Part shown: in pieces, positions 7,585-22,447 of the stretch
How the letters are laid out: each line of letters starts with the position of its first letter
Numbering within the stretch: the first letter of the stretch is position 1
From: a virus
Virus record (IMG/VR): IMGVR_UViG_3300022752_000391
Location: 1 to 24,008 of that record
Length of the DNA: 24,008 bases
Reading direction: 5' to 3' (one strand)
Made by a program: the position numbers and the translations under genes
Notes under the pieces: model-generated
Told to the model about the DNA's origin: nothing
Databases searched by the model: none
What the model saw: the letters and a program-made list of their open reading frames with translations, nothing else

Positions 7585-10461
7585 ATGAAGTCGCAGGAAT
7601 TCCTAGCGACTGTACTACCCTCTTCAGGTTTTTATTGTGCCTGTGAGCTTAGTACAGCAAAAAAAGAACATGTCTTCGTTGACACGATTGAAGACCTGTA
7701 TAGCAAAGCAATACAATTTAGCAACAACAACCATAATGCTTTCTACGCCCTAGCAACATTTAAGGAAAAAGGCAAGAGGGTGGCAGATAATGCCCTTAAA
7801 ATCAAGTCCTTATTCTTAGATATTGATTGTGGCGAAGGAAAGGATTATGCTACTAAGAACGAAGCTGCGGCGGCGCTGGATACCTTTTTGTCTAGCACTT
7901 CGTTAGACGACCTCGGAACCCCTTACATCCTATCTAGTGGGGGTGGTTTACATGTGTATTGGGCGCTTACAGAAGAAGTTGATATAGAGGTTTGGAAACC
8001 TGTTGCAGAGAACCTAAAGCGTCTTTGCAAGCAAGAAGGCTTCAAGATTGACTTTAATGTAACCGGCGACTCTGCGAGGGTTTTGCGGGTTCCCGATACT
8101 AACAACTATAAAGAAGAGAAACCACGCCAAGTTAAGATTAAAGTAGTAGGTGGGGTATTTGATCTTGATAAAATCAACGCCATTCTTAAAGACAGGCTAA
8201 CCACAAGCTACGAAGAAACCGCCCTTTTACTGCCCGGCAAACGCCCTAAAGAAACAGGCACGACCAATGTCAAATTAATAGAAAACTCCTCAACTTTTTT
8301 CAGCAAAATTGAAGAAACAAAACAATGCGGACAGCTTGAGCATTACAAAAACAACGCAAGCAAAGATGGCATGGAGCCTCTGTTTTTCAATATAGTTTCA
8401 TGGGCTAAGCGTTGCGATGACGGACACAAAGCTGCAATGCGTCTTGGTGCTATGCACCCCTATGATGAAGCCCGAATAAATGCTAAGTGGAACAGTACAA
8501 AAGGTCCAAGCCCCTGCCTAAAGCTAGATGAAGTGAACCCCGGCATCTGCACAAGTTGCCCGCACTTTGGCAAGATTACAAACCCATTAGTATGGGGCAA
8601 AGAATTAAAGACCGACAACACCGAGAAAGAAGTTGTAATTGATCGGCTACAAACTAAAACAGAAGACGCTGAGATTGTAGATGTCCAAGAAGAAAAGCCA
8701 ACAGTTACCAAACCAATTCCACCCAAGGGCTTTAGTTATGGTGCTAATGGTGGCGTCTACATGGATAAGTTGCTAGAAGACGACGATGGTAAAAAGGCAC
8801 GCAAACAAGTTATGTTATTGCCATACGATTTGTTTGCCGTAGACATCCTTAATAGAAACGGCGAGCATAGCGTTCACATGGTAGCTTTTCGCCCCGAAGG
8901 TGCAGTCGATGTTATCTTCCCCCAAAAGGCGGTGGTTAGTAAAGACGAGACTGTTAAAGCCTTGGCTAGCCAAAACATCATTGCTACATTCGGATCAGGC
9001 AACGACAAGAACTTGTTTGAGTATGTGCGTGGTTGCGTAGAGCAGGCTAGCGCCAACAAAAGGGCTATTAAAGTTCCCAATAACTGTGGATGGCAGGACG
9101 ACAACGCTTTTGTATATAACAGTTGTATATACCAGCCCAACGGCAAAAGAGTGTTTGTTCCCACCCCCGGACTTGAGAACGTCAATCAGCACACCAAACC
9201 AGCAGGCAGCATTGAAGAATGGCGGGAAGTTATTAACCTGTTTGTCAGACGAGACATTTGGAATCTACTTACTATAAGTCTGGCAGGTCCTGCATCGTTG
9301 CTAATGGAGTTCTCAGGATTTAGCGGTATGACATACCACTTAGGCTCAGATACTTCAGGTGCGGGTAAATCACTTGCCTTATCTATTGCAGAAAGTTTCT
9401 TCGGCAAGCCTGAGAAATACAGGGTAGGTCAGGCGACATCAGCAGTTGCCCTGCAACAGCGCCAAGGTATGCTAGGTAGTCTGCCCCTGATAACCGATGA
9501 GATTACCGCCAAGAACCGAGGCGACTTTGAGTGGTTGCCTATTTTCTTGCTAGATCAGTCGCAGGGTAAAGGCAAAGAGCGTATGGAAGCCAACGCTAAC
9601 AAAGAGCGCCTTAACGTATTGAATTGGAAATCTATTGCGCTTTTGTCCTCTAACACACACGTCTTTGACTTCTTGGGTGGTATGCGTAAGCACGCTTCTC
9701 AAGCGGAAATGTTGCGTATTTTAGAGGAATGCCCCACAGTTAAATTAGAATGGAGTGAAGAAGAGTCCGCTATCCTTGATAAATTAAAAGAGAATTACGG
9801 CATAGCAGGCGATAGATACATACGTTGGTTAGTCCAAAATAGGGAGGTAGCAATTGATGTTTACAAGAAAACGCATACGATGCTTAAGAAAGAACTTGAA
9901 TCCACCGATGACGAGCGATTTTGGTCTGCGGGTAACGCTTGTATTATTTCTACTGTCATTCTTCTTGGTTCTAAGTATTCCAATGTTATTGATATACCAG
10001 TTAAGCCTGTTATTGAAGTCCTGCGTGGAATGGTTCAGAGGGCTAGGGTAATTATATTTGGCGCTCGTCGTTCTGCGGAAGACATCCTAAACGCTTACAC
10101 ACGAGAGAACTATGGCAAGTTTGTTATTGTGAAAGTCATTAACGGCAATCTTGAAGCCATGCTTGGTAGTGGCGGTGTAGTAGATCAGTCGCTAACTAGG
10201 TCAGAAGTTGCCGGAAGGGTTGACCACGATATAACCCCCGGCTGGATTGACTACTATATAGAAGAGGCGCAACTTAGATCGCATTGTGTGTCCATGAGTT
10301 TTGGTTACTCTAACTTTAAGAAACAAATGGAAGCCTTGAAAGACTATAAGATTGAGTATCTAGAAAAGAAAAACATCTTGTACAAAACTCGGGGTCCAGC
10401 TATGCGAGTTAACGTAATGAAAATAAGCCGTCGAGCCGACGTTAAAGATGAGGAAAGTTAA
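7585..10461 (+). CDS. Primase-helicase: archaeo-eukaryotic primase domain fused to a DUF927-like ATPase
   Basis: This is a bifunctional replication protein, 958 residues, expected to lay RNA/DNA primers and unwind DNA. The N-terminal primase domain has motif I FLDID (D79, D81), motif II SGGGLHVYW (H123) and motif III FKIDFN (D156), the catalytic set of archaeo-eukaryotic primases. A cysteine group C311, C322, C325 with H327 suggests a zinc site in a PriCT-like linker. From about residue 381 (GFSYGANGGVY) a DUF927-like region leads to an ATPase with Walker A SGAGKS (591-596), Walker B LPLITDE (D638, E639) and sensor N690 (LLSSN). This arrangement matches virus and plasmid primase-helicases rather than T7 gp4 or DnaB/DnaG. 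GGAG about eight bases before the ATG fixes the start. It follows the HTH and 53-residue genes and overlaps the next gene by 14 bases. Confidence 0.92.
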   Translation: MKSQEFLATVLPSSGFYCACELSTAKKEHVFVDTIEDLYSKAIQFSNNNHNAFYALATFKEKGKRVADNALKIKSLFLDIDCGEGKDYATKNEAAAALDTFLSSTSLDDLGTPYILSSGGGLHVYWALTEEVDIEVWKPVAENLKRLCKQEGFKIDFNVTGDSARVLRVPDTNNYKEEKPRQVKIKVVGGVFDLDKINAILKDRLTTSYEETALLLPGKRPKETGTTNVKLIENSSTFFSKIEETKQCGQLEHYKNNASKDGMEPLFFNIVSWAKRCDDGHKAAMRLGAMHPYDEARINAKWNSTKGPSPCLKLDEVNPGICTSCPHFGKITNPLVWGKELKTDNTEKEVVIDRLQTKTEDAEIVDVQEEKPTVTKPIPPKGFSYGANGGVYMDKLLEDDDGKKARKQVMLLPYDLFAVDILNRNGEHSVHMVAFRPEGAVDVIFPQKAVVSKDETVKALASQNIIATFGSGNDKNLFEYVRGCVEQASANKRAIKVPNNCGWQDDNAFVYNSCIYQPNGKRVFVPTPGLENVNQHTKPAGSIEEWREVINLFVRRDIWNLLTISLAGPASLLMEFSGFSGMTYHLGSDTSGAGKSLALSIAESFFGKPEKYRVGQATSAVALQQRQGMLGSLPLITDEITAKNRGDFEWLPIFLLDQSQGKGKERMEANANKERLNVLNWKSIALLSSNTHVFDFLGGMRKHASQAEMLRILEECPTVKLEWSEEESAILDKLKENYGIAGDRYIRWLVQNREVAIDVYKKTHTMLKKELESTDDERFWSAGNACIISTVILLGSKYSNVIDIPVKPVIEVLRGMVQRARVIIFGARRSAEDILNAYTRENYGKFVIVKVINGNLEAMLGSGGVVDQSLTRSEVAGRVDHDITPGWIDYYIEEAQLRSHCVSMSFGYSNFKKQMEALKDYKIEYLEKKNILYKTRGPAMRVNVMKISRRADVKDEES

Positions 10462-10639
10462 GGTTCATTATCCTTGGGAAACTCTTCCTCCCAAGGGAAC
10501 TTTTTTTGTACCTAGCCTAAACTTAAAAGAAACCCGAGAAGCAGGACTAAAAGCCGCCGTCTACCACAAGGTTAAAGCCAAAGCGCACTTTGTTATTGTG
10601 CAAGGGAAGATTGGCGTTTTGTTTCAGCGATTGTTTTAA
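10448..10639 (+). CDS. 63-residue basic phage protein at the end of the replication cluster, unknown function
   Basis: This encodes 63 residues and overlaps the primase-helicase end by 14 bases. It begins with a basic strand and HYPWETLPPKGTFFVPSL, then a basic helix (KETREAGLKAAVYHKVKAKA) and a hydrophobic strand pair (HFVIVQGKIGVLFQRLF). The pattern PWE..P.G..FFVPS followed by a basic helix looks like a real folded small protein that recurs in phage replication regions, perhaps binding nucleic acid; I cannot name it. The ribosome binding site is poor. Two oddities bear on whether it is expressed: a terminator-like hairpin lies in codons 9-20, and its last 47 bases overlap the end of the opposite-strand giant gene. 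Confidence 0.65.
   Translation: MRKVKVHYPWETLPPKGTFFVPSLNLKETREAGLKAAVYHKVKAKAHFVIVQGKIGVLFQRLF
10472..10507 (+). terminator. Terminator-like hairpin just after the primase-helicase stop
   Basis: CCTTGGGA (10472-10479) pairs perfectly with TCCCAAGG (10489-10496) across a 9-base loop, and seven T residues follow at 10501-10507 after four bases. This fits a rho-independent terminator for rightward transcription, although the four-base spacer is longer than ideal. It lies inside codons 9-20 of the 63-residue gene, so it may terminate, attenuate or be chance. Confidence 0.5.
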
Positions 10640-13600
10640 GGTATTCTTTTGCAAGTTTTGTTCTGTTGTCTTGCAGTTCTTTAATCTGCTCTTTCTTCTC
10701 TCTAGCAAACTGCTCTCTATTTTGCCCCGGCTGCAACACGCTTTCTTTTATCTTACGGATTTCAGCAGACAACGCATCTAACTGCGCCTTCATAGTGCCG
10801 GCAGCTTGCCCAAGATTTATTTCTTTTTCGTACTTCTTAGAATAAGCTTCGGCTTCTTTTTCACGTCCAGTTTCTTGCAGTCTTTCAAGAGTTTCAGCTT
10901 TTTGTGCATAGCCTTCCAAAGCATCGTAGGCGCTACGAACTATACCGCCACCATCTCGAGGCTGGAATAGAACACCAAATCCCGGAGTATCGGCAAGTGA
11001 GCCATCAGGTTTAACAGTGCGGCTATCCAAAAGCATTGGGTTTACTAAAGCTGAAATCGTTGTATACAACCCGCCAAAATAATTCTTAAACAAGTAGTCC
11101 AGCTTTACAGGGCTAATGTTTAACATTTCTCCAAGCATCTTAGGACCTTCATTGGTAGTATCGTAATACCTTTGCCCCGGCTCATATTGCTGCAACCTGA
11201 CGCTTTCAATGTCCCTGCCTGTATAAATAGACTTATTAAATCCATACGCTTCCAAAGGCGCTTTAATTGCGGTTGGAATGCCCAAAGGATTGGTTGCGTT
11301 TAGTACAGTCTTAATAGCGTCTAGACCTTCTCTAGCTTTATCATCGCTGTATGCCATGTTTACCAACGCCTCAGGCAAAGCTTTGAATATGTAACCAGCC
11401 TCAAACGGTATGGGCATTCTAAAACCTTCTTTGCCTTCAGCCCCAAATCCAGGGATAAACCAGTTCATGTATCTCTGCTCAGGCGTAGCGTTTTGATACG
11501 CTTCGTTATCTTGGTTAGCAATTGCGTACAGTATCGACATACCCGCAATCATTGAACCCCGTTTAATTAACTTGTTTTGTAAGTCTAATCGCTTAGCATA
11601 CGGCATTTTTCCAGCAAACGCTTTGTATAACACGTTATAGCCTTGGACTGCCGAATTAAAGAACGGCACCATTGTGTTAACCCAGTGCATAGATGGAGAT
11701 GCGCCACGAGTATTAAAGTTCATAGACTCCATCGTAGCAATCTGCGCTTCCATGTCCGTTAAGCCTTGCTTGCGGAAACTTTCGTATAAAACAGAACGTG
11801 TAGACGCATCAGCCTGAGAAGCTACTCTATCCATAAAAGCCATAGCGCCAGTCAAATTAGCTGAGCCACCTTTAAGTCTAGTAACGATTTGATTTAGGTC
11901 TTCAGCGTATCCTGTATATACTTCCCCACCAGTAATTCCCGACTCTTGCATAAACTTGCTTGTATCGCTTGTGCCCCTAGCCGCTTTTCCAATTTCTTTT
12001 AGCGACGACAAAATAGGTACAAAGTTACCGCCTGTGGTTAGGTATGCTGAAATTGGGTCACGCACTAACTGTTTGTAGGCATAGAACGGGTTACGGGTTA
12101 CGCCTTTGCGCAACCAATTAGCCGGAATGCCTAACAAACGCACAATACCCGGAAGCTGTGTTGGTATACCTTCTAAGCCTTTTACCAATAAATCAGGGCT
12201 AATGTCGTTGAATTCTGCATTCTTAGACGTATCAATTACTGCATGGTAGTCTTTACCGTTAGACTTAAAGCGAATTACGTCTGGGGAAGCAGGTCCATTT
12301 CCCTTGTGGATTTCGGCAATTCCTAATCCTTTTAACGTATTAGCCACGCTCATTGTTGCGTTATTGCTCAAAGCCATGTCTGTAATCATGGCGGTATTTT
12401 CTACCGATGAACGGAAAAAGTCTCGTATTTTTGTTTCGCCGCCAACCAACTCTTTTAAGTATGGTTGTTCTTTTAGCGACCCAATACGAATTGGGCTTTC
12501 CATACCTATCATTAATTCAGCGTTACCGTTACGGATGCGGTAGTAAGGCACGTAATTTTTAGCCTTTAATTCTTTTCCTTTTTGCGCACCCAAATATCCG
12601 GAATCAATTAAAGTATCAATCAGTCCGTTATTGTATTTCTGATAAATCTCAAATGCCTTAACAAAATGCGGGTCTGCATCACCAGACTTCTTAGCTGCTG
12701 CAAGCATCTGCGGTGTAACTTCTTTGCCGTCAATAACGCCGTCCATTACTAACTTATTAAAGCCAACGTCATCAGCACGTTTAGCAATAGCGTAGGCGGT
12801 AAAGCCTTCATTCAGCGCTTGGACATTACCTTTTTTAGACTGTAACAATTCCTGTAGTACGTCTTTCATGCCCGGTCCACCGCCAGCACGAATAGTAACT
12901 TCGCCGGTTTCAGGGTTTTTGTAGAAGATACGAGGTCCGTTTACAACCGTTTCGCTTGTTATATTGGTCCGTTGTCCATGTGCCAACAGGTTGTACATCA
13001 TTTGCGAAGCCGGTCCTGTCTCTCCCATACGGCGCCATATTTCTTTTAGCGGGGCTAGGCGGTCAACAAATTGCGTATTAAAAGCAACTAAGTTACCTTT
13101 AAGTTTAGAAACAACGCTCTTTTCTCTTCCAACAATTAAGTTAGCAGCATTAGAAAGGGGATCGTTAGGATCTGCAAATTTGGCTTTTCTAAAAGCTTTA
13201 TCAAGACCTATAGGACCGCTTGGCAAAACAGCGCCTTTACCTCCAATAGCATCCCTAGATTCTTTTAGTAGATACAGCAAGTCAGCATCGCTAACTTTCT
13301 CTAATTTAGTAAGCCCGGTGCTACGTAACCAATTACGGAACGCTCCAACCATTTCTTTAATGAAGCGGATAGAACGTTTGATAAAGTTATCTGTTAACCG
13401 GTTTTGCTCAACATAAGCAACCATCTCTCGCAAAGCCGTTACCATTTCTCCCTCAGGAGTTAGTCCGCCTCGTGCTTTAGCATCTTTAACAGCCGCAACT
13501 ACGTCATTGAGAACGCCCATTTCTCTAGCCATGCGGATAATTCCGCCCGGTTTGGCTTCAATACGTTTGGCTAAATCATAAAGCCCTTTTCTGCCAATCA

Positions 13601-16600
13601 AACGGTCAAAGCCGTAGTGACCAGCAAGTTCGTGGGCTAAAGTCATTTCAAAGTCTAAACGGTTAGCATGGGTATTACCAACAGTTACAACGGTGCCGTC
13701 ATCTAATACAACGCCTTTTAATGTACGCAGATCTTCAGGGTCAAGTTGATTCCTAATATAGTCTGGTAAACCTTCTACAGAATCAGCGTATACAAAGTTG
13801 ATTCCTTCTGGCAGTTTAGCTTTTGCTTCTTCGGCTAGTTTGCGAGTCTCGGCAACATTAACTTTGCCTTCTCCCTTTTTACCAAGCCTAAATACGCTAT
13901 CAAAATCATCACGAGTGAACTTAATTTCAGGTTTATATTCAAGTTCGCCCTCAAATAAAGACTCAAACTGACCTTCTTTTTCTGCTTTTATACCTGCTTC
14001 AATTTCTGCTACGCCGGTCTTAAGCGGCTTTTTACGTTGCTTACGGGCAGGTTGATCGCCTAAAATAGCTAATGCACGCGCTGCTTTTGTTTTTTCTTTA
14101 AGTTCTTCAATGCGTACGTTTTCTTTTGCTACCTCATCTTTAAGTACTTTAATGACGTCGGTTAAAGTTTCTTTCTTTTCAGCTAAAGAATTAAATTTTT
14201 GTTTTAACGGACCAACAAGCGCTTTAGTTTTAAGCGCATTTTCGTTAGCCGTAATTCTAGTTTCAATTGCTTTTATGTAGGCTTTAATATCCGCTTCATA
14301 CTCAGGCACTTCATCAATTGTTTTGCCAAGGCGCTTACGGATGCCAGCCATTTCGGCGGCACCTTCTCTACTTCTTTCAATTACTTCTTGGCGTTTCTCT
14401 TCCGCCGTCTTACCCAAACCAACTTTTTTAGTTACCGCTTTCTGCATTAACGGCTGGCGTTCTCTATCACGAGCTTCTTTTAGTATGCCTAGCTGTCTTT
14501 CTAATCTAGCATATTCCGGTGTGCCTTCTTTGGCTTTTTCTAGCTGCGCTTCTTTATTACGAATAAGCTTTCTAACAGCCGCTAAATTTCTAGATTTTGT
14601 GCCAATTTCTACAGTACGTTCTGTCGTAACACCGAGATCTTCAGGCGCACCCTTAGCTTCTACTTCTTCTTTAACCACAACAGGTTTTACTTCTTGGCGT
14701 ACGTATGCTGCCGCTTCGCCTTTTTCTAATGCTTTTTGCCCTGAAACCCGTTTTTCTGCAATTCTTTTTTCTAAGTCTGCCGCAGCTTTAGCTTCTGCTT
14801 CATCAAATTTTCCAAGAGTAGCTTGCGAGAAAGCTTGGTCTACTTCGCCTTTTGCTTCGCTTTCTTCTAGTACTTTCTTTAAGCGTTTACGAGTACGCTT
14901 TACAAAAGCGTCGCTGTTTTCCCGAGCACGAACAATATCACTAAGCGTAACACTTTCTTCACGCTGCCGTATATCTTCTATAAACGCTTGCTCTTCTTTT
15001 AGAGTTTGCTCTAATTCTGTAAGCCGTTTCTCATACGCAGGTATTTCTTTTTCAAATACAAATTTAGCTTTAGCTGACTTGCCTTTTGTATTTTCCTTAA
15101 GCCATTTAATACGGTCTTTGTAGAACTTAATTTCTTTTTCAGTGCGCTTATCATTCTCTAATGCTTGCTCTAGTGGCTTAGCAAACAATTCACGCATAGC
15201 AATAGCACGGTTTTCTAACTCTTTTTTTGTCTGCGCATAAGACGTTTCTAAATCAGAACTTAGTTTAGCTATTAAAGCTTTTCTATTATCTTGTGCAAGT
15301 AGCGCGGCGGTTTGCTCTTCAGTTAAAGGTCTTTTTTCTCCAGTAACTCCAAGTTTTTCAAGAAGTTTGTCTTTCTTAACTTCTAACTGAAGATGCCGTT
15401 TAATGTACCTATTTCTTTGTGCTTTAGAATCTTCAACAAATTTCTTAATTCTTGCAGCTGGCAAACGCTCTTTATCTGTCTGTGCTTTATTTAACTGTTT
15501 CTCGGCTTCTAAAAAAGCTTTAGTTAAAAATTGTTTTTGCGCAATTTGATACGGGCCACGACCTAAATCATGGGGCGCTTTAACTCCGGCTTTTAAAGCT
15601 TTAGCGTTTTCCTCTTGTTTCTGGGTAAAATCTTCTAGTTTTATGCGAGCTGCTTCAAAAGTTTTGGTTGCTTCTGGAACCGTAATATATAGAGCAGGTG
15701 CTTTTTCTAAAGGCACAGTTTCTAGTTCAAGCTTAACTTGTTCTAGTTCTTTAACTATTTTTGCGTATTTGTCGTTTTCGACTTTTGCTTTTTCAATAGC
15801 CTGTTGCGCTAAATTTTTAGCAAGCTGTAGTTTTTGCTTTTGGATTCCTACAAACTTCATAAAGTTTGCGGGGGTAGCACGCACTATAGCAACAGGTTCT
15901 AAATCTCTTTCGCCAAACAATTCCCTCTGTGCTAGATCAACGCCGCCTTCATCAGGTTTAGCGTATTCAGGGTAAAACTGAGCAAGTTCTTTTTCTCTAG
16001 GTGTAAGCGCTGCCTGTTCCGTTACTTTATAAGTAGGAACCTTTTTAACTTCGCCTTTTTTACCTACAACTTCATACTCGCCAGTCTTTTCAATTTTGGA
16101 AACGCCGGTAACAGGTTCTTCAGTTTCTGCTATTTGTTTCTCTAAAAACCTAATTTTGTTTAAATCTGGGTTTGCTTTGGCTTTTTCAGTGCGAAGCATC
16201 TGCACTGGATCACGCTCCATTGCGCTAAAGAATTGTTTTTCTACTTTAAGCGCTGACTCGCCTTTAATGTATTTTTGTTTAATACCGGCAAGCTGTTTTT
16301 CTATTTGGCTAATACCCTCTTGCAGCGTATCTTCTTTCTGCATTTTGCTGTATTGCGCAGCTATACGGTTTAATACCAGTCTTTCTTCATCTGGCATTTT
16401 TTCACGTAATGCTTTTTGCCCAAGGCTTAAACGCTGCTGTATGTATTCTGGGCGTAACAGTACCGATAAATTTCGGTTTTTAATTACGTTTTCTAAAGAA
16501 TCTTTTAAGTCGTATGCAAGCTTTAATGCCTCATCAGGAGTCATAGCTTTTTGTTTAGCAGCGGCTCTACGAGCATCTACGTCACGCACCGCAGCTTCAA

Positions 16601-18932
16601 TATAGTCCCCAGCAGCTTGTTCTGCTTTGGCAATAAGACCTTCTTTATTTGTTGCAGCAAATGCAGTTTCCTTTTGCCCTTTGCCTAAATACCTGCTCTT
16701 AACAAGGTCTTCAACAGCATCACGTAATTCGTCAATTGCTTTTTGTTGATCCATTAACGCTTTGTCAAGACGTCCTTCAGCTTTGCGAGTTAACTCAGAC
16801 CATGAACCGCCAAGACTTTCTACGGATGTTTTAGCTTCCGCAAGTCTTTCATTTAGTATATTGACAGTATTTATGTCGTTAGCGGCTTTAGCTTCTTCAA
16901 TAGCCCGATTGATACGATCAATTCGTAAAGCGTTTAACTCTAAATTTTCTGCTGATTTGGGTTGATTGTTTATGCTGTCTACTAAATCATCCGCAACTTT
17001 CTGCGGCATCTGCGTATTAAAAGTTTCTTCTAACTCGGCTCGACGAGCGTCATACGCTAGTTCTTCTTTTGTAGGCTCAAAGGCTAACCCTTGCTGCTTA
17101 GGCGCAAACAAATCTTCTTGTTCTTTTGCCGGTAGTTCTTCTAAGCGCTTTTGCGCTTTCTCTAATTTGCCAACAATTTTGTCAAGTTTTTCTTGATCAA
17201 AAGCTGGACCTGTGTATTTAGCGGCTTGTTTCTTTAGGGTTGATATTTCTTTTTCAAGAGACGCCCGTTCTTCTTCCGGCAGTTTAGGAAGCGTTTCACG
17301 TTGTTTTTGCGCTGCATCAAGAGCGTCAGATATTTGTGTACGAGTTTCAATTAAATCTCGGTAGGCTTTTGTGTCGCCATTTTTAATAGCCTCATCTATT
17401 TGAGACTGTATACGGTCTAGCATGTTCTCCATACGGGGTATGGAATTAGCTAACATAGTACGAGTATCTTCTAGTTCTTTAGCTTGCGCTTCTTTTTCAG
17501 CTACGGTAAGCGTTGATTTAGCGCCGGGCAATTCAACAAACTTAGATGGCGGTATTTCTTCGCCTAGTTGTAGTTCCCTAGCTTGTTGTAGCCGTTCTGC
17601 TTCTGCCGCTTGTTGTTCATCTAATTTAGCTTGCGCTTCAGCAGCTTCTTGCTCTCTGGTAACTTTTAACGCTTCAATGCGTTGTTCTAGCGTTTTATAT
17701 GCGCCGGGTACTTCTGGGGCGGCTACGCCAACACGTTTAGCGTACTCTGCTTGTTCTTGTTTAAGTGCTTTAATCTGATCAATAACATTGCGCTTATCTT
17801 CTTTAGATAAATCTTTTTGCTTTCTTACAGCTTCTAAGTCCGCAATACGTTGCGCAAAATCTGCTTGTACTTGCTGTACTTCTGCTTGACCTTCGGGGCT
17901 AGCATAGTAGTCTTTCATTACCCCAGCTTGCTGCTCACGAGCTATTTCTGCACGCTGTGTTTCACCTTGTTTAGCCGCAGTGTCAATTAAATTTTTAGCA
18001 CGTTTAGTTTCACCTACACGCATGAAGCCTAAGAACGGAGCCAATAACCCCATATCTTTAGCCATCTGCGTATATTCATTTAAAGCTTCTTGGCTGGTTA
18101 TTTCTTGTCCTGCGGCTCCTCGCCGTAAAGCTTCGGTACCAACCATAGAGCCGGCACCAATAACGCCAGCTTCGCCAGCAGTAATAAGGTAGTTTTTAAG
18201 TTTTCCGCCAATCTGAGCAGTAGCTTGTTCAGCCGTAATAGCGCCAGATTTAATTTGTGGCAGGAGAATTTTTGCTTCTTGAGTGGCTGTTTTAAAAGCC
18301 GTATTTTTAATAGCGCCGGTAATTAACCCGGGTCCTACGCTATCAATAGCGGTTTGTCCAATAGCAGCAATAAGGGCTGCGTCTGTATCGACTGGCTTAC
18401 CTAAGTCTTTTGCCCTAGTAATGTTTTCGCCGTAGTGAATAGGCAAGTTAGCTGCCGCAAAACCAATTAAACTGGCTACAGCAGCTTTAGGCGCAATGGC
18501 ACCGGCAGCAGCACCAGCAGCAATAGGGGCACCATAGCGACCACCAATACTACCAATTAAGCCGCCAACAGGCTCTGTTACATACTCGCTTAATAATGCG
18601 CCGGCTCCGGGTATTATGCCCTGCCGTTGTCTTGCGGCTACATCTTCTTTTGTAATTTGCTGAAAACCTTCAGCCGCAGATTTTTCTAGTTCTTTGCCGT
18701 ATTCAACAAGACTTTCTGCACCGGTAGTTTCACCAATGCCTCGTGCCGCCGAACCTAGTCCAGATTTAAAACCTGATTTAACTGCCGGTATAAAACCGGT
18801 CTTTGCCATGCGCTCTTCAAATTCAGGAAAAGCTTCAGGGTATTTTTTACGGGCAAGCTCAAAAGCTTCATCATCGCTTAGACCCTTAGGCACCTCCATA
18901 TAGGTGCCATCTGGCAACGGCAAATACGGCAT
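10593..18932 (-). CDS. Giant virion/ejection protein with coiled coils, HExxxH site and LPD38-like domain
   Basis: This encodes 2779 residues, probably an internal virion protein ejected into the host (the role of T7 gp15/gp16). Order of parts: a short N-terminal LPDGTYMEVPKGLSDDEAF module; hydrophobic Gly/Ala-rich segments at about 121-165, 185-210 and 250-268 that could enter membranes; a Glu/Lys/Ala/Gln-rich, mostly coiled-coil region from about 320 to 1640; and a metallopeptidase-like domain with H1767-E-L-A-G-H1772. Last comes a C-terminal region resembling large polyvalent protein domain 38 (around 2150-2560, including NPFYAYKQLVRDP), ending in more charged helix. AGGGAA before the ATG is the ribosome binding site; 16 bases separate it from the transglycosylase gene. 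No frameshift is seen. The LPD38 label rests on recognition of its style and is less certain than the virion role. Confidence 0.88.
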   Translation of the reverse strand: MPYLPLPDGTYMEVPKGLSDDEAFELARKKYPEAFPEFEERMAKTGFIPAVKSGFKSGLGSAARGIGETTGAESLVEYGKELEKSAAEGFQQITKEDVAARQRQGIIPGAGALLSEYVTEPVGGLIGSIGGRYGAPIAAGAAAGAIAPKAAVASLIGFAAANLPIHYGENITRAKDLGKPVDTDAALIAAIGQTAIDSVGPGLITGAIKNTAFKTATQEAKILLPQIKSGAITAEQATAQIGGKLKNYLITAGEAGVIGAGSMVGTEALRRGAAGQEITSQEALNEYTQMAKDMGLLAPFLGFMRVGETKRAKNLIDTAAKQGETQRAEIAREQQAGVMKDYYASPEGQAEVQQVQADFAQRIADLEAVRKQKDLSKEDKRNVIDQIKALKQEQAEYAKRVGVAAPEVPGAYKTLEQRIEALKVTREQEAAEAQAKLDEQQAAEAERLQQARELQLGEEIPPSKFVELPGAKSTLTVAEKEAQAKELEDTRTMLANSIPRMENMLDRIQSQIDEAIKNGDTKAYRDLIETRTQISDALDAAQKQRETLPKLPEEERASLEKEISTLKKQAAKYTGPAFDQEKLDKIVGKLEKAQKRLEELPAKEQEDLFAPKQQGLAFEPTKEELAYDARRAELEETFNTQMPQKVADDLVDSINNQPKSAENLELNALRIDRINRAIEEAKAANDINTVNILNERLAEAKTSVESLGGSWSELTRKAEGRLDKALMDQQKAIDELRDAVEDLVKSRYLGKGQKETAFAATNKEGLIAKAEQAAGDYIEAAVRDVDARRAAAKQKAMTPDEALKLAYDLKDSLENVIKNRNLSVLLRPEYIQQRLSLGQKALREKMPDEERLVLNRIAAQYSKMQKEDTLQEGISQIEKQLAGIKQKYIKGESALKVEKQFFSAMERDPVQMLRTEKAKANPDLNKIRFLEKQIAETEEPVTGVSKIEKTGEYEVVGKKGEVKKVPTYKVTEQAALTPREKELAQFYPEYAKPDEGGVDLAQRELFGERDLEPVAIVRATPANFMKFVGIQKQKLQLAKNLAQQAIEKAKVENDKYAKIVKELEQVKLELETVPLEKAPALYITVPEATKTFEAARIKLEDFTQKQEENAKALKAGVKAPHDLGRGPYQIAQKQFLTKAFLEAEKQLNKAQTDKERLPAARIKKFVEDSKAQRNRYIKRHLQLEVKKDKLLEKLGVTGEKRPLTEEQTAALLAQDNRKALIAKLSSDLETSYAQTKKELENRAIAMRELFAKPLEQALENDKRTEKEIKFYKDRIKWLKENTKGKSAKAKFVFEKEIPAYEKRLTELEQTLKEEQAFIEDIRQREESVTLSDIVRARENSDAFVKRTRKRLKKVLEESEAKGEVDQAFSQATLGKFDEAEAKAAADLEKRIAEKRVSGQKALEKGEAAAYVRQEVKPVVVKEEVEAKGAPEDLGVTTERTVEIGTKSRNLAAVRKLIRNKEAQLEKAKEGTPEYARLERQLGILKEARDRERQPLMQKAVTKKVGLGKTAEEKRQEVIERSREGAAEMAGIRKRLGKTIDEVPEYEADIKAYIKAIETRITANENALKTKALVGPLKQKFNSLAEKKETLTDVIKVLKDEVAKENVRIEELKEKTKAARALAILGDQPARKQRKKPLKTGVAEIEAGIKAEKEGQFESLFEGELEYKPEIKFTRDDFDSVFRLGKKGEGKVNVAETRKLAEEAKAKLPEGINFVYADSVEGLPDYIRNQLDPEDLRTLKGVVLDDGTVVTVGNTHANRLDFEMTLAHELAGHYGFDRLIGRKGLYDLAKRIEAKPGGIIRMAREMGVLNDVVAAVKDAKARGGLTPEGEMVTALREMVAYVEQNRLTDNFIKRSIRFIKEMVGAFRNWLRSTGLTKLEKVSDADLLYLLKESRDAIGGKGAVLPSGPIGLDKAFRKAKFADPNDPLSNAANLIVGREKSVVSKLKGNLVAFNTQFVDRLAPLKEIWRRMGETGPASQMMYNLLAHGQRTNITSETVVNGPRIFYKNPETGEVTIRAGGGPGMKDVLQELLQSKKGNVQALNEGFTAYAIAKRADDVGFNKLVMDGVIDGKEVTPQMLAAAKKSGDADPHFVKAFEIYQKYNNGLIDTLIDSGYLGAQKGKELKAKNYVPYYRIRNGNAELMIGMESPIRIGSLKEQPYLKELVGGETKIRDFFRSSVENTAMITDMALSNNATMSVANTLKGLGIAEIHKGNGPASPDVIRFKSNGKDYHAVIDTSKNAEFNDISPDLLVKGLEGIPTQLPGIVRLLGIPANWLRKGVTRNPFYAYKQLVRDPISAYLTTGGNFVPILSSLKEIGKAARGTSDTSKFMQESGITGGEVYTGYAEDLNQIVTRLKGGSANLTGAMAFMDRVASQADASTRSVLYESFRKQGLTDMEAQIATMESMNFNTRGASPSMHWVNTMVPFFNSAVQGYNVLYKAFAGKMPYAKRLDLQNKLIKRGSMIAGMSILYAIANQDNEAYQNATPEQRYMNWFIPGFGAEGKEGFRMPIPFEAGYIFKALPEALVNMAYSDDKAREGLDAIKTVLNATNPLGIPTAIKAPLEAYGFNKSIYTGRDIESVRLQQYEPGQRYYDTTNEGPKMLGEMLNISPVKLDYLFKNYFGGLYTTISALVNPMLLDSRTVKPDGSLADTPGFGVLFQPRDGGGIVRSAYDALEGYAQKAETLERLQETGREKEAEAYSKKYEKEINLGQAAGTMKAQLDALSAEIRKIKESVLQPGQNREQFAREKKEQIKELQDNRTKLAKEYLKTIAETKRQSSLAQ

Positions 18933-18948
18933 AAAAATTCCCTAATTG

Positions 18949-20961
18949 TTATTTTCTAATCTTATCCTCAGGTACTGTTTGCACCTGTACTGATGGATTT
19001 GCTAGTCCTTGTAAATCTGATTCAGTTAACCCTGATGATTCTAAATACCAACGTTTAAGCTCAGGATTCATCATTATACGCTTATACGTTTCTTGTTGGA
19101 TATACTTCTCACGATTACCCGGTTTATTCAAATCAAAGTTGCCAATCTTGGTCATGTTTTTGATTTGAGCTTCAATTGACTTAGGTATATTTTCAAGCAA
19201 TCCTGCATACTTAACATTCTGCGTTTCAACACCTCTTTGTTTATAAAGGTCTTGATATAGCTTGTTTCTTTCTTGCGCAGATAATGCCGCAAGTCCTTGA
19301 GCTTCTGCGGCGCTTAAAGCTTTACGAGAAGTTAAGTAATCTTGAATACCTGCGGCACCACCTTGACCAATATTAGCCGAAGCATAGGGAGAAGTTCCGC
19401 CAGCAATCCGCAATCCAGTACCTAATAAACCAAGCCCTTGTGCTTCTTTTTGCTGTTTAGCTAAGTTGAGGAAGTAGTCGTTTATGCGGTCTTGGGTTGA
19501 AACGCCGGGTGGCATTGCAGGCTGACTGGAGGTTTCAAAATTAAATTTTGGTAGTTTGTAGTTAGGATCAAATGCTGCGCTTGAAGGGAATTGATTGCCC
19601 TCTTGTGCCATACGGCGGTTTACGTTTGAACTTGAGATCATGCGGTTTATTTCACGATCAGAATCTGCCTGAGAAATTGTTTTTGGTTCCGTTTTTGCGG
19701 CAGTTTCACTTACAGCTGATTTACCAAGAGGCTGTTTTCCAAGGCGTATTCTTTCTATATCAGAAGCAGATAAATCTGTTTTAGGGATTCTACCTCTAAG
19801 AATGTCTGTTTCTGGAGAAGGTGTACTTAAAAATGAACCAACCTTAGACGGTATCTTTTTAAGAAACTCCATTATTTTTTTGTCAGTTGGACTCCCGCCA
19901 TAAATTAAAGGCGTTTCTTCTTCCTCTTCAACAGGGGCAGGGACGCTTCCCCTGTCAACAAAATTAATAATGCCGCCTTTGGCTAAGTTTTTAACATAGT
20001 TACGAGTCTCTTTTGGTAACTTACTAAAGTCACCGCCACGCTTGAGCCACTTGTCAGTATTGCCCGGACCCCAGTTGTACGCAATTGCAGCTAGTTTAGG
20101 ATCGCCATACTTTCTTTCTAGTTTAGCCAAGTACCCAACACCGCCAAAAATATTCTGATATGGATCAGTAATATCACTAACACCCATTTCTCTTGCAGTG
20201 CCCGGCATTAACTGCATAACACCTGTAGCCCCTTTGGGCGAGACTGCACGAGCAGGGTCTTTATGTCCGCCGGTTTCTTTATTCATTACATGCTCAACCA
20301 GCCATGGGGTAGCGCCTTTTTCTTGGGCTGCCTTTAAAGCAATATCTCTATGAGATCCGCCTGCGGTTGAAGCTGGGGTGGCACTTTTTGTTTGTCTGGC
20401 TTCTGCCAAAGCTGTTTCATATGACTTAGGCACCATCGCACCAATCTTCTGACGTAACATATTTGCACCGGCAGCAAAGCCACCTAGCCCGCCAGTCTTA
20501 ATAATCTGACTTAAAAATTTGTCATCGTCATCAGTATCGTCGTCTTCGTCATCATCGGCGAAACTAGGCATGCCGCCAGTATTAAATGCAACCATGCCGC
20601 CGCCAGCATAGCTCTGCATTTCATCGTCGGTAGGGTCAAAATGGTCATCCATAGCAATACCACCACCAGCTAGGGTCTGCATATTTTCTGCCGGTAAAGC
20701 GGCTACGCCCGATTCTGCCATTTGTGGTGGGGCAGCTTGAGCCAACATTTGGTCTCGTACTGTTGGCGCTTGCATTTGTTGTGCAGCTTCTGCGCCTTGA
20801 CTAGCGGTCATTAATCTATCACGCTGCTGCTTTGCAGCCATGGCTACAGCCATAGGAATCGAGTTATCTCGACCCTGCATTACCGCTAATAGTCTATCAA
20901 CAGGATACAGTTGTGGATTAAGCGCATCCTGATACAGTTGTTCCATACTTGGGGCTTTCAT
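18949..20961 (-). CDS. Virion protein with soluble lytic transglycosylase (SLT) domain
   Basis: This should cut peptidoglycan glycan strands during DNA entry, 670 residues. Residues about 203-325 form the SLT domain: catalytic E229 in MNKETGG, GVMQLMPGTA (247-256), a YQNIFGGVGYLAKL helix and AYNWGPG (294-300). The N-terminal 200 residues are Gln/Ala-rich with Gly-Gly-Gly hinges and an acidic run (136-147). The C-terminal half is low in motifs, mostly polar helix with a short Gly-rich stretch (LGLLGTGLRIAGG). There is no signal peptide or membrane anchor, which argues for a virion component and not a lysis enzyme. AGGAG at 20967-20971 overlaps the previous stop codon, so translation is probably coupled. 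The catalytic assignment is strong; particle location is inferred from neighbours. Confidence 0.9.
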   Translation of the reverse strand: MKAPSMEQLYQDALNPQLYPVDRLLAVMQGRDNSIPMAVAMAAKQQRDRLMTASQGAEAAQQMQAPTVRDQMLAQAAPPQMAESGVAALPAENMQTLAGGGIAMDDHFDPTDDEMQSYAGGGMVAFNTGGMPSFADDDEDDDTDDDDKFLSQIIKTGGLGGFAAGANMLRQKIGAMVPKSYETALAEARQTKSATPASTAGGSHRDIALKAAQEKGATPWLVEHVMNKETGGHKDPARAVSPKGATGVMQLMPGTAREMGVSDITDPYQNIFGGVGYLAKLERKYGDPKLAAIAYNWGPGNTDKWLKRGGDFSKLPKETRNYVKNLAKGGIINFVDRGSVPAPVEEEEETPLIYGGSPTDKKIMEFLKKIPSKVGSFLSTPSPETDILRGRIPKTDLSASDIERIRLGKQPLGKSAVSETAAKTEPKTISQADSDREINRMISSSNVNRRMAQEGNQFPSSAAFDPNYKLPKFNFETSSQPAMPPGVSTQDRINDYFLNLAKQQKEAQGLGLLGTGLRIAGGTSPYASANIGQGGAAGIQDYLTSRKALSAAEAQGLAALSAQERNKLYQDLYKQRGVETQNVKYAGLLENIPKSIEAQIKNMTKIGNFDLNKPGNREKYIQQETYKRIMMNPELKRWYLESSGLTESDLQGLANPSVQVQTVPEDKIRK
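20521..20556 (-). repeat. Acidic-run coding repeat in the transglycosylase gene
   Basis: Twelve consecutive codons (GAT/GAC with one GAA and one ACT) encode DDDEDDDTDDDD at residues 136-147, directly before the SLT region. The near-pure GAY codons make the DNA a short imperfect trinucleotide repeat. It may bind divalent cations or act as a charged linker. Confidence 0.7.
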
Positions 20962-20969
20962 GCTCGCTC

Positions 20970-22037
20970 CTAACCAAATGCTTTATATGCACCAAGACCC
21001 GCAAGACCCAAGCCTGTAACTTGAGATAATGAACTGGGAGGTGCTTGATATTGTTGAACTGAAGTTTGCTGAAGTGGCAAACCGCGTAATTGAGCATTCA
21101 TAAATGCAAGCTGTTGTTGTGGGTATTGTTGCGCTACAGCATAGTTTTGAATAGCTTGATTCATTATATTTTGCTGTTGCTGCTGTTGTTGTGTGCCCAA
21201 CTGATTCTGTAAACCAATGATGCCTTGCTGCGCACCAAGTTGTTGCCCGCCCAATTGACCTAGTTGACCAGCTGCTTGAACGGCTTGACCGTAACCCTGT
21301 AGTCCTGCGGTAGTACCAAATTGCTGTGCTTGTTGCGCAGCTTGGAATGCGTTTTGTGTGCCAGTAGCTTGAATGTTGGCTAACTGTGCTTGTAAGTTTC
21401 TGTTTCTTTCTTGTTCAGCCAAAACTTGACGGGCGCCACCATATGTTCCTTGTCTAGCTGCGCCAAGATTTGCGCCTACATTACGCATTTGTGCATCACG
21501 TAATGCTTCTGTTTTTTGCACATCTACCACATTTTGTACATACGGCGACATGTATGCTTGCGTAGCCGCTGGGTTTGTAGCCATAGCACGATAGTCCGCA
21601 CCAGCACCAATAGAACCTAAACCTGCGGCACCGGCTAAACCTGTAGCTTGACCATACTGACCGGGTACTTGCAGATTTTCTGCACCGGTAAAACTTTGTT
21701 GCTGCATTGGGCTAAACGAAGCAATATAATCCTCAGGTTTTGTGCTATACGGTACAAAAGGTTTAACACCTGTAATTTGAGTAGTACCATCAGGTCCCGG
21801 GGTAGTATTAAACAACTGCTGTTGAGTTGCGCCAAGCATTGTCTCAACATAGGGACGTGCGTATTCAGGAATGCTTGTATTTTGTACAGTCGTTTGAGTA
21901 GGTGCGGCAGGAGGAGGGGGAGGCGAACCACCACCGCCACCAAGGATGTATCCGCCGTTAGCTTTTCTGCGTGTAGCAGAGTCGCCTAAAAATTCTCCAG
22001 CGGCGTATAACTCACGTCTAGAATAAGTTGTTTTCAT
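20970..22037 (-). CDS. Gln/Ala-rich internal virion protein (gp14-like by position)
   Basis: This encodes 355 residues with strongly biased composition. A GGGGGSPPPPPAAP linker (33-46) follows a short basic N-terminus. Residues 55-120 hold a more ordered part (IPEYARPYVETMLGATQQQ, SFSPMQQQSF). From about 150 to 330 there is a helical Gln/Ala/Asn-rich region (QVLAEQERNRNLQAQLANIQ), including seven consecutive Gln at 283-289. A short hydrophobic Gly/Leu tail ends the protein. There are no cysteines or catalytic motifs. Its start overlaps the GNAT-like gene stop (ATGA), and eight bases separate it from the transglycosylase gene. Alongside a transglycosylase and a giant coiled-coil protein, this profile suits an ejection-channel component comparable in place to T7 gp14. 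Homology to gp14 itself is not claimed. Confidence 0.8.
   Translation of the reverse strand: MKTTYSRRELYAAGEFLGDSATRRKANGGYILGGGGGSPPPPPAAPTQTTVQNTSIPEYARPYVETMLGATQQQLFNTTPGPDGTTQITGVKPFVPYSTKPEDYIASFSPMQQQSFTGAENLQVPGQYGQATGLAGAAGLGSIGAGADYRAMATNPAATQAYMSPYVQNVVDVQKTEALRDAQMRNVGANLGAARQGTYGGARQVLAEQERNRNLQAQLANIQATGTQNAFQAAQQAQQFGTTAGLQGYGQAVQAAGQLGQLGGQQLGAQQGIIGLQNQLGTQQQQQQQNIMNQAIQNYAVAQQYPQQQLAFMNAQLRGLPLQQTSVQQYQAPPSSLSQVTGLGLAGLGAYKAFG
21171..21191 (-). repeat. Seven-codon CAA/CAG glutamine tract
   Basis: Seven successive CAA/CAG codons encode glutamines 283-289 of the Gln-rich virion protein. Mixed codons reduce slippage, but the tract may still vary in length among relatives. Confidence 0.75.
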
Positions 22038-22447
22038 ATGTTCGTCTCTACAATTCTGTACCGCTCTTCAAACCCATATCGGCTCCACAAACGAGCAATT
22101 GACTCCCTTGCCGCACCTTGTATCTTAGTTGCGCCGTACACTTTTAAAATGGCTTTAAATTGTTCAAATGTTTCTTTACTTGAAATCAATTTGCCCCCTA
22201 TAAATGTTACAAACGCTACTCGTGCATTTGGGTAATTCATAAAACTAATTGTTGCTGCGCCGTGAAACTTACCTTCTTCATCTACTGCCGCTACTAAAAT
22301 CCACTGCCCTGAAGTTACATAGACTTTAATCTGATCCAACGTGTAATCGTCACCGCAGTATTGTTGTGCGGAATCAATAAATCCTTCAACCAGAGGCCAA
22401 ACTTGCGATACATAATTAGGGTTAATATCCGTTATTTTTAATGTCAT
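22034..22447 (-). CDS. GNAT-like acetyltransferase-fold protein in the virion cluster
   Basis: This encodes 137 residues. The fold pattern fits a GNAT: an N-terminal helix after a first strand (YVSQVWPLVEGFIDSA), strands WILVAAVDEEGKFHGAATI (49-67) and VAFVTFIGG (78-85), a central helix (KETFEQFKAILKVYG) and the closing RESIARLWSRYGFEE (114-128), very like the acetyltransferase C-terminal motif. The usual acetyl-CoA loop (Q/R-x-x-G-x-G/A) is replaced by GGKLISSKE, so catalysis is doubtful. Both ends use ATGA overlaps with virion genes, so it is expressed with them. Phage podovirus clusters often carry such a protein near the internal virion genes. It may modify a host or virion protein, or be a structural relic of the fold. 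Confidence 0.75.
   Translation of the reverse strand: MTLKITDINPNYVSQVWPLVEGFIDSAQQYCGDDYTLDQIKVYVTSGQWILVAAVDEEGKFHGAATISFMNYPNARVAFVTFIGGKLISSKETFEQFKAILKVYGATKIQGAARESIARLWSRYGFEERYRIVETNI

Follow-up and report, generated by a model that had tools for sequence, protein, structure and literature searches.

A conserved HExxxH motif in a giant phage polyvalent protein and the homology of its domain to C1 of N4 virion RNA polymerase

Described HExxH and HExxxH domains

An HEXXXH set is among the zincin metallopeptidases (MPTases) that Iyer et al. (2017; PMC5512222) describe, with 12 clades, from polyvalent proteins, where the MPTase core consists of an N-terminal helix, three strands, and two helices. 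Polyvalent MPTases were proposed to process their own chains; DdrB of phage P1 is processed before packaging, and the virion RNA polymerase (vRNAP) of phage N4 is packaged unprocessed (PMC5512222). The C1 domain of N4 vRNAP contains an HExxH motif (PMC12633501), and solved PDB entries (9pnr and related) include full-length N4 vRNAP chains containing this domain. The HExxxH spacing itself is compatible with metallopeptidase activity, since DPP III (M49) and the MATCAP/TMCP tubulin carboxypeptidases are HExxxH enzymes (PMC10499314).

We analyzed the virus record IMGVR_UViG_3300022752_000391 over its full 24,008 bases (the window), in which the largest gene encodes a giant protein carrying a single HExxxH motif. 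Compared by published description, the domain around this motif showed no difference from the HEXXXH set of Iyer et al. (PMC5512222). It shares the spacing, a later Glu on the following helix, a predicted core of one helix, three strands, and two helices, and its occurrence in giant polyvalent phage proteins that bear an LPD domain. An earlier note on this DNA had pointed to similar HExxxH forms in other phage polyvalent proteins, which PMC5512222 states outright. The form was already described in 2017, and the window case is real but not new in kind. Our own additions are modest: Pfam has no model for these domains, conservation of the third Glu was measured, the domain is homologous to N4 C1, and a single HExxH member came to light. 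The DPP III and MATCAP/TMCP enzymes likewise combine HExxxH with a downstream Glu but gave no significant sequence or fold match to the window domain and have other substrates and contexts. Membership in M49, raised by the likeness to HExxGH, was rejected, as no DPP III was found among the sequence or fold matches.

The motif in the giant protein and its relatives

The giant gene and the features within it are as follows, with residue numbers referring to the 2779-aa protein.

10593..18932, minus strand: giant polyvalent-type protein, 2779 aa (ORF call, LPD38, and giant relatives of 2471-3165 aa)
11004..11504, minus strand: large polyvalent protein associated domain 38 (LPD38), residues 2477-2643 (Pfam PF18857, E 4e-26)
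13383..13865, minus strand: putative zincin-like metallopeptidase core, residues about 1690-1850 (A3 and A4 alignments, AlphaFold models, hhalign to the N4 vRNAP C1 family)
13425..13427, minus strand: E1836 in REMVA, proposed third metal ligand (conserved in alignments A2, A3, and A4)
13617..13634, minus strand: HELAGH, residues 1767-1772 (H1767 and H1772 as candidate ligands of the metal, E1768 as candidate general base)

The motif LAHELAGHYGF, with H1767, E1768, and H1772, matched exactly between the ORF translation and the earlier note. The same note had looked to a later Glu-rich helix for a third ligand, and this suggestion can be sharpened to one conserved glutamate, because TALREMVAYVE begins at residue 1832 and its first Glu is E1836. 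HELAGH is the sole HExxH, HExxxH, or HExxxxH in the 2779-aa protein, which contains only 11 histidines, and any HExxxH occurred in 0.4% of 2000 composition-preserving shuffles of that protein. Between the N-terminus and the peptidase domain lies an E/K/A-rich region without a family match above cut-off; the long stretch at residues about 330-1690 is probably coiled coil.

When viral contigs were searched with the domain, every relative returned had HExxxH, whether close (51-58% identity) or more distant (35%). Aligning the window with seven relatives (A2; 23-58% identity to the window) gave 14 invariant columns, including H1767, E1768, H1772, Y1773, E1836, and A1839; among the aligned sequences, Vibrio phage D274 carries the variant HELVVH. 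Vibrio phage 1F273_PE002, a cultured relative, has the domain as well. The DNA pattern LxHEx[VIM]GHYG matched 90 viral stretches, which yielded 76 distinct domains, each in an ORF longer than 500 aa. In a 48-sequence alignment (A3), E1836 and A1839, neither of which is part of the search pattern, were at least 90% conserved, and E1836 was invariant in a further alignment (A4). The HExxxH motif in the giant protein is thus real and not a product of chance, because H1767, E1768, H1772, and E1836 are among the few positions conserved in relatives. Like the large LPD38 protein of the window, these relatives carry the domain in giant ORFs.

Because A3 was mostly gathered through a DNA pattern that contains the motif, its perfect HE..GHY columns are partly circular, and we therefore ran searches in which the motif was not prescribed. 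Three relatives were used in tblastn against named phages, and the matched regions were then inspected, several matches in Stx-converting phages being left out of this inspection. Of about a dozen domains from named phages, only one lacked HExxxH; those with it included the domains of Achromobacter, Bacteroides, Vibrio, and Dolichospermum phages and of a faecal phage, with G, A, V, T, or R at the fifth motif position. The exception was Methanosarcina virus MetMV (L127), whose HELTH, an HExxH, stands in register with the HExxxH of the others. When 369 bacterial genomes of one class were searched with a profile, 10 prophage-bearing genomes matched, and all 10 had HExxxH. Across loci we counted 94 distinct domains (93 HExxxH, one HExxH). 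The named-phage matches show the domain in viruses whose hosts are as unlike as Bacteroides and Methanosarcina. Homologues lacking the H or E, which the earlier note had named as evidence against its reading, did not appear: none of the 94 domains, most of them fetched via the motif, had lost it altogether.

Two further observations concern individual members. The HELTH of MetMV, an archaeal virus and the only HExxH member found in this otherwise HExxxH family, aligns with a one-residue gap. In some giant ORFs (L019, L074, L089, and L111), the profile matched more than one stretch, which fits the argument of PMC5512222 that multidomain chains are processed; the 4808-aa ORF of L019 contains HExxxH twice (residues 2648 and 3265).

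Predicted fold and relation to N4 vRNAP C1

AlphaFold2 with A3 as input modeled the window domain at pLDDT 86, with a helix at 1693-1706, strands at 1713-1716, 1740-1742, and 1748-1751, an HExxxH helix at 1758-1792, and a helix bearing E1836 at 1826-1843. A trimmed relative (L085) was modeled at pLDDT 91 with an identical order of elements. The predicted order of helix, three strands, HExxxH helix, and Glu helix is that of the zincin core, and both motif elements fall on the expected helices of the predicted structure. The predicted-structure check proposed in the earlier note thus returned the zincin core order, but not a significant fold match to a solved zincin: Foldseek against the PDB gave none for either the window domain or the trimmed core of the relative. 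Sub-threshold PDB folds for the relative's core included anthrax lethal factor, BlaR1, ZMPSTE24, and MATCAP, all with E >0.1 and suggestive only. Against a viral library, Foldseek matched polyvalent phage proteins down to E 1e-6. The fold-library search did not return the N4 vRNAP C1 structures, and PDB sequence searches with the domain profiles found no match to a solved zincin. For the window domain and its relatives, Pfam held no credible peptidase model and gave single sub-threshold matches only, to Peptidase_M48, Zincin_1, and MATCAP. The PHROGs into which relatives fall are mostly of unknown function.

A profile of 33 N4-type C1 domains aligned with A3 by hhalign at E 2.3e-7 and a probability of 93.5%. 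The match covers the strands and the first part of the HE helix, and on this sequence evidence we regard the window domain as homologous to the HExxH domain of N4 vRNAP C1. The two domains also have in common a conserved later Glu (within NEFMAW in the N4-type domains), and each is followed by a large C-terminal region, in a protein that is ejected from the virion in N4 and probably so in the window phage. They differ in the motif, which is HExxH in N4 vRNAP C1 and HExxxH in the window. The region after the window domain had no detectable homology to N4 C2, and the reading of a shared C-terminal half was rejected; nor was an RNA polymerase domain found in the window protein. With its HExxxH and later Glu, the zincin-like domain foreseen in the earlier note is upheld by the conservation, the predicted core order, and the N4 C1 homology.

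In a quick tree, the HExxxH rows stood apart from the N4-type HExxH rows, with MetMV inside the HExxxH side; the tree had many open forks, and no direction of change between HExxH and HExxxH is claimed from it. The earlier suggestion of a distinct phage peptidase family therefore holds insofar as the HExxxH rows group together, apart from the N4-type rows (one HExxH member inside), and have no Pfam model, but its distinctness is qualified by the set already having been described. More speculatively, and with considerable doubt on our part, these domains might constitute a phage-borne metallopeptidase family without its own Pfam model that arose from an N4-type HExxH domain by insertion of one residue in the active-site helix, a step revertible as in MetMV, and that cuts the giant protein during ejection.

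A separate observation from the PDB is chain G of entry 9sfn, a solved 1337-aa internal virion protein with HEAVH that matched the N4 C1 profile at E 1e-6. Other internal virion proteins thus carry the N4 C1 domain type.

Gene neighborhood and proposed function

The giant gene ends a cassette that relatives have in the same order, over the extent of their loci. Upstream of the giant gene are a 360-aa protein and the following genes.

18949..20961, minus strand: 670-aa protein with an SLT lytic transglycosylase domain, the upstream neighbor of the giant gene (Pfam SLT 6e-20; PHROG lytic tail protein; synteny)
20970..22037, minus strand: 355-aa protein resembling a DNA ejection protein (PHROG 4287, E 4e-7; synteny)
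22034..22447, minus strand: 137-aa protein, GNAT-like by eye, without a family match above cut-off (synteny)

This ejection-type cassette supports, without proving, a virion-carried and ejected protein, which the giant protein probably is. Its nearest relatives continue for about 1000 residues past the motif and have a homologous C-terminal region. Mass spectrometry detected a giant DarB-like protein, which need not carry this domain, in virions of a different, Bcep22-like phage (PMC9144972).

We infer, with differing confidence, that the domain binds metal, is catalytic, is carried in the virion, and processes its own chain. Residues H1767, H1772, and E1836 very likely form a metal site, and it is reasonably likely that the domain is an active protease. 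In the mechanism we propose, residues about 1690-1850 would form a gluzincin-type metallopeptidase domain in which a zinc ion is held by H1767, H1772, and E1836 and water is activated by E1768 as the general base. The helix would make room for the extra residue between the histidines through a local bulge or bend, as other HExxxH enzymes do. Cleavage would occur in cis and divide the giant protein into functional parts, either ahead of packaging, inside the head, or at entry. A zinc peptidase acting on the giant protein to which it belongs, at about the time of packaging or ejection, is the reading we favor, albeit tentatively and at somewhat less than an even chance, and host targets and a structural role stand beside it as alternatives.

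Having such a domain does not necessarily entail self-cleavage, because N4 vRNAP, with a homologous domain, is packaged unprocessed. An active peptidase might instead act on a host protein met on entry or on another virion protein; effector use is listed as an option for polyvalent MPTases (PMC5512222), and the domain is encoded in an ejection cassette. We consider such a target unlikely, given that the nearest substrate is plainly the giant protein itself and that the domain is spread over viruses whose hosts differ so widely. It also seems unlikely that the metal site is kept for a structural role, in packaging or in forming the DNA-ejection channel, with little or no proteolysis. Such a role would be in keeping with N4, where the homologous vRNAP region is needed for encapsidation of a protein packaged unprocessed (PMC5512222) and where full-length chains including C1 have been solved, but a purely structural zinc site could dispense with the general base E1768, which is invariant in every relative examined. 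That a helical protein acquired HExxxH by accident and has no metal site is highly improbable: although E and helices abound in the protein and no solved fold matched significantly, the motif is rare in shuffled sequences, is strictly conserved with the third Glu, and has a homologous counterpart in the N4 HExxH.

The self-processing we favor bears on a wider question, as phages commonly have giant virion proteins with predicted protease domains and whether these domains cut is largely untested. A compact, conserved HExxxH domain with a candidate catalytic Glu offers a clean test case for the self-processing idea, and comparing it with the single HExxH relative could show how the extra residue fits in.

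Elsewhere in the window, the plus strand encodes a 958-aa protein (7585-10461) with DUF927 and a weak primase-like N-terminal match, along with genes for a family A DNA polymerase, a PD-(D/E)XK nuclease, and an SNF2-type helicase.
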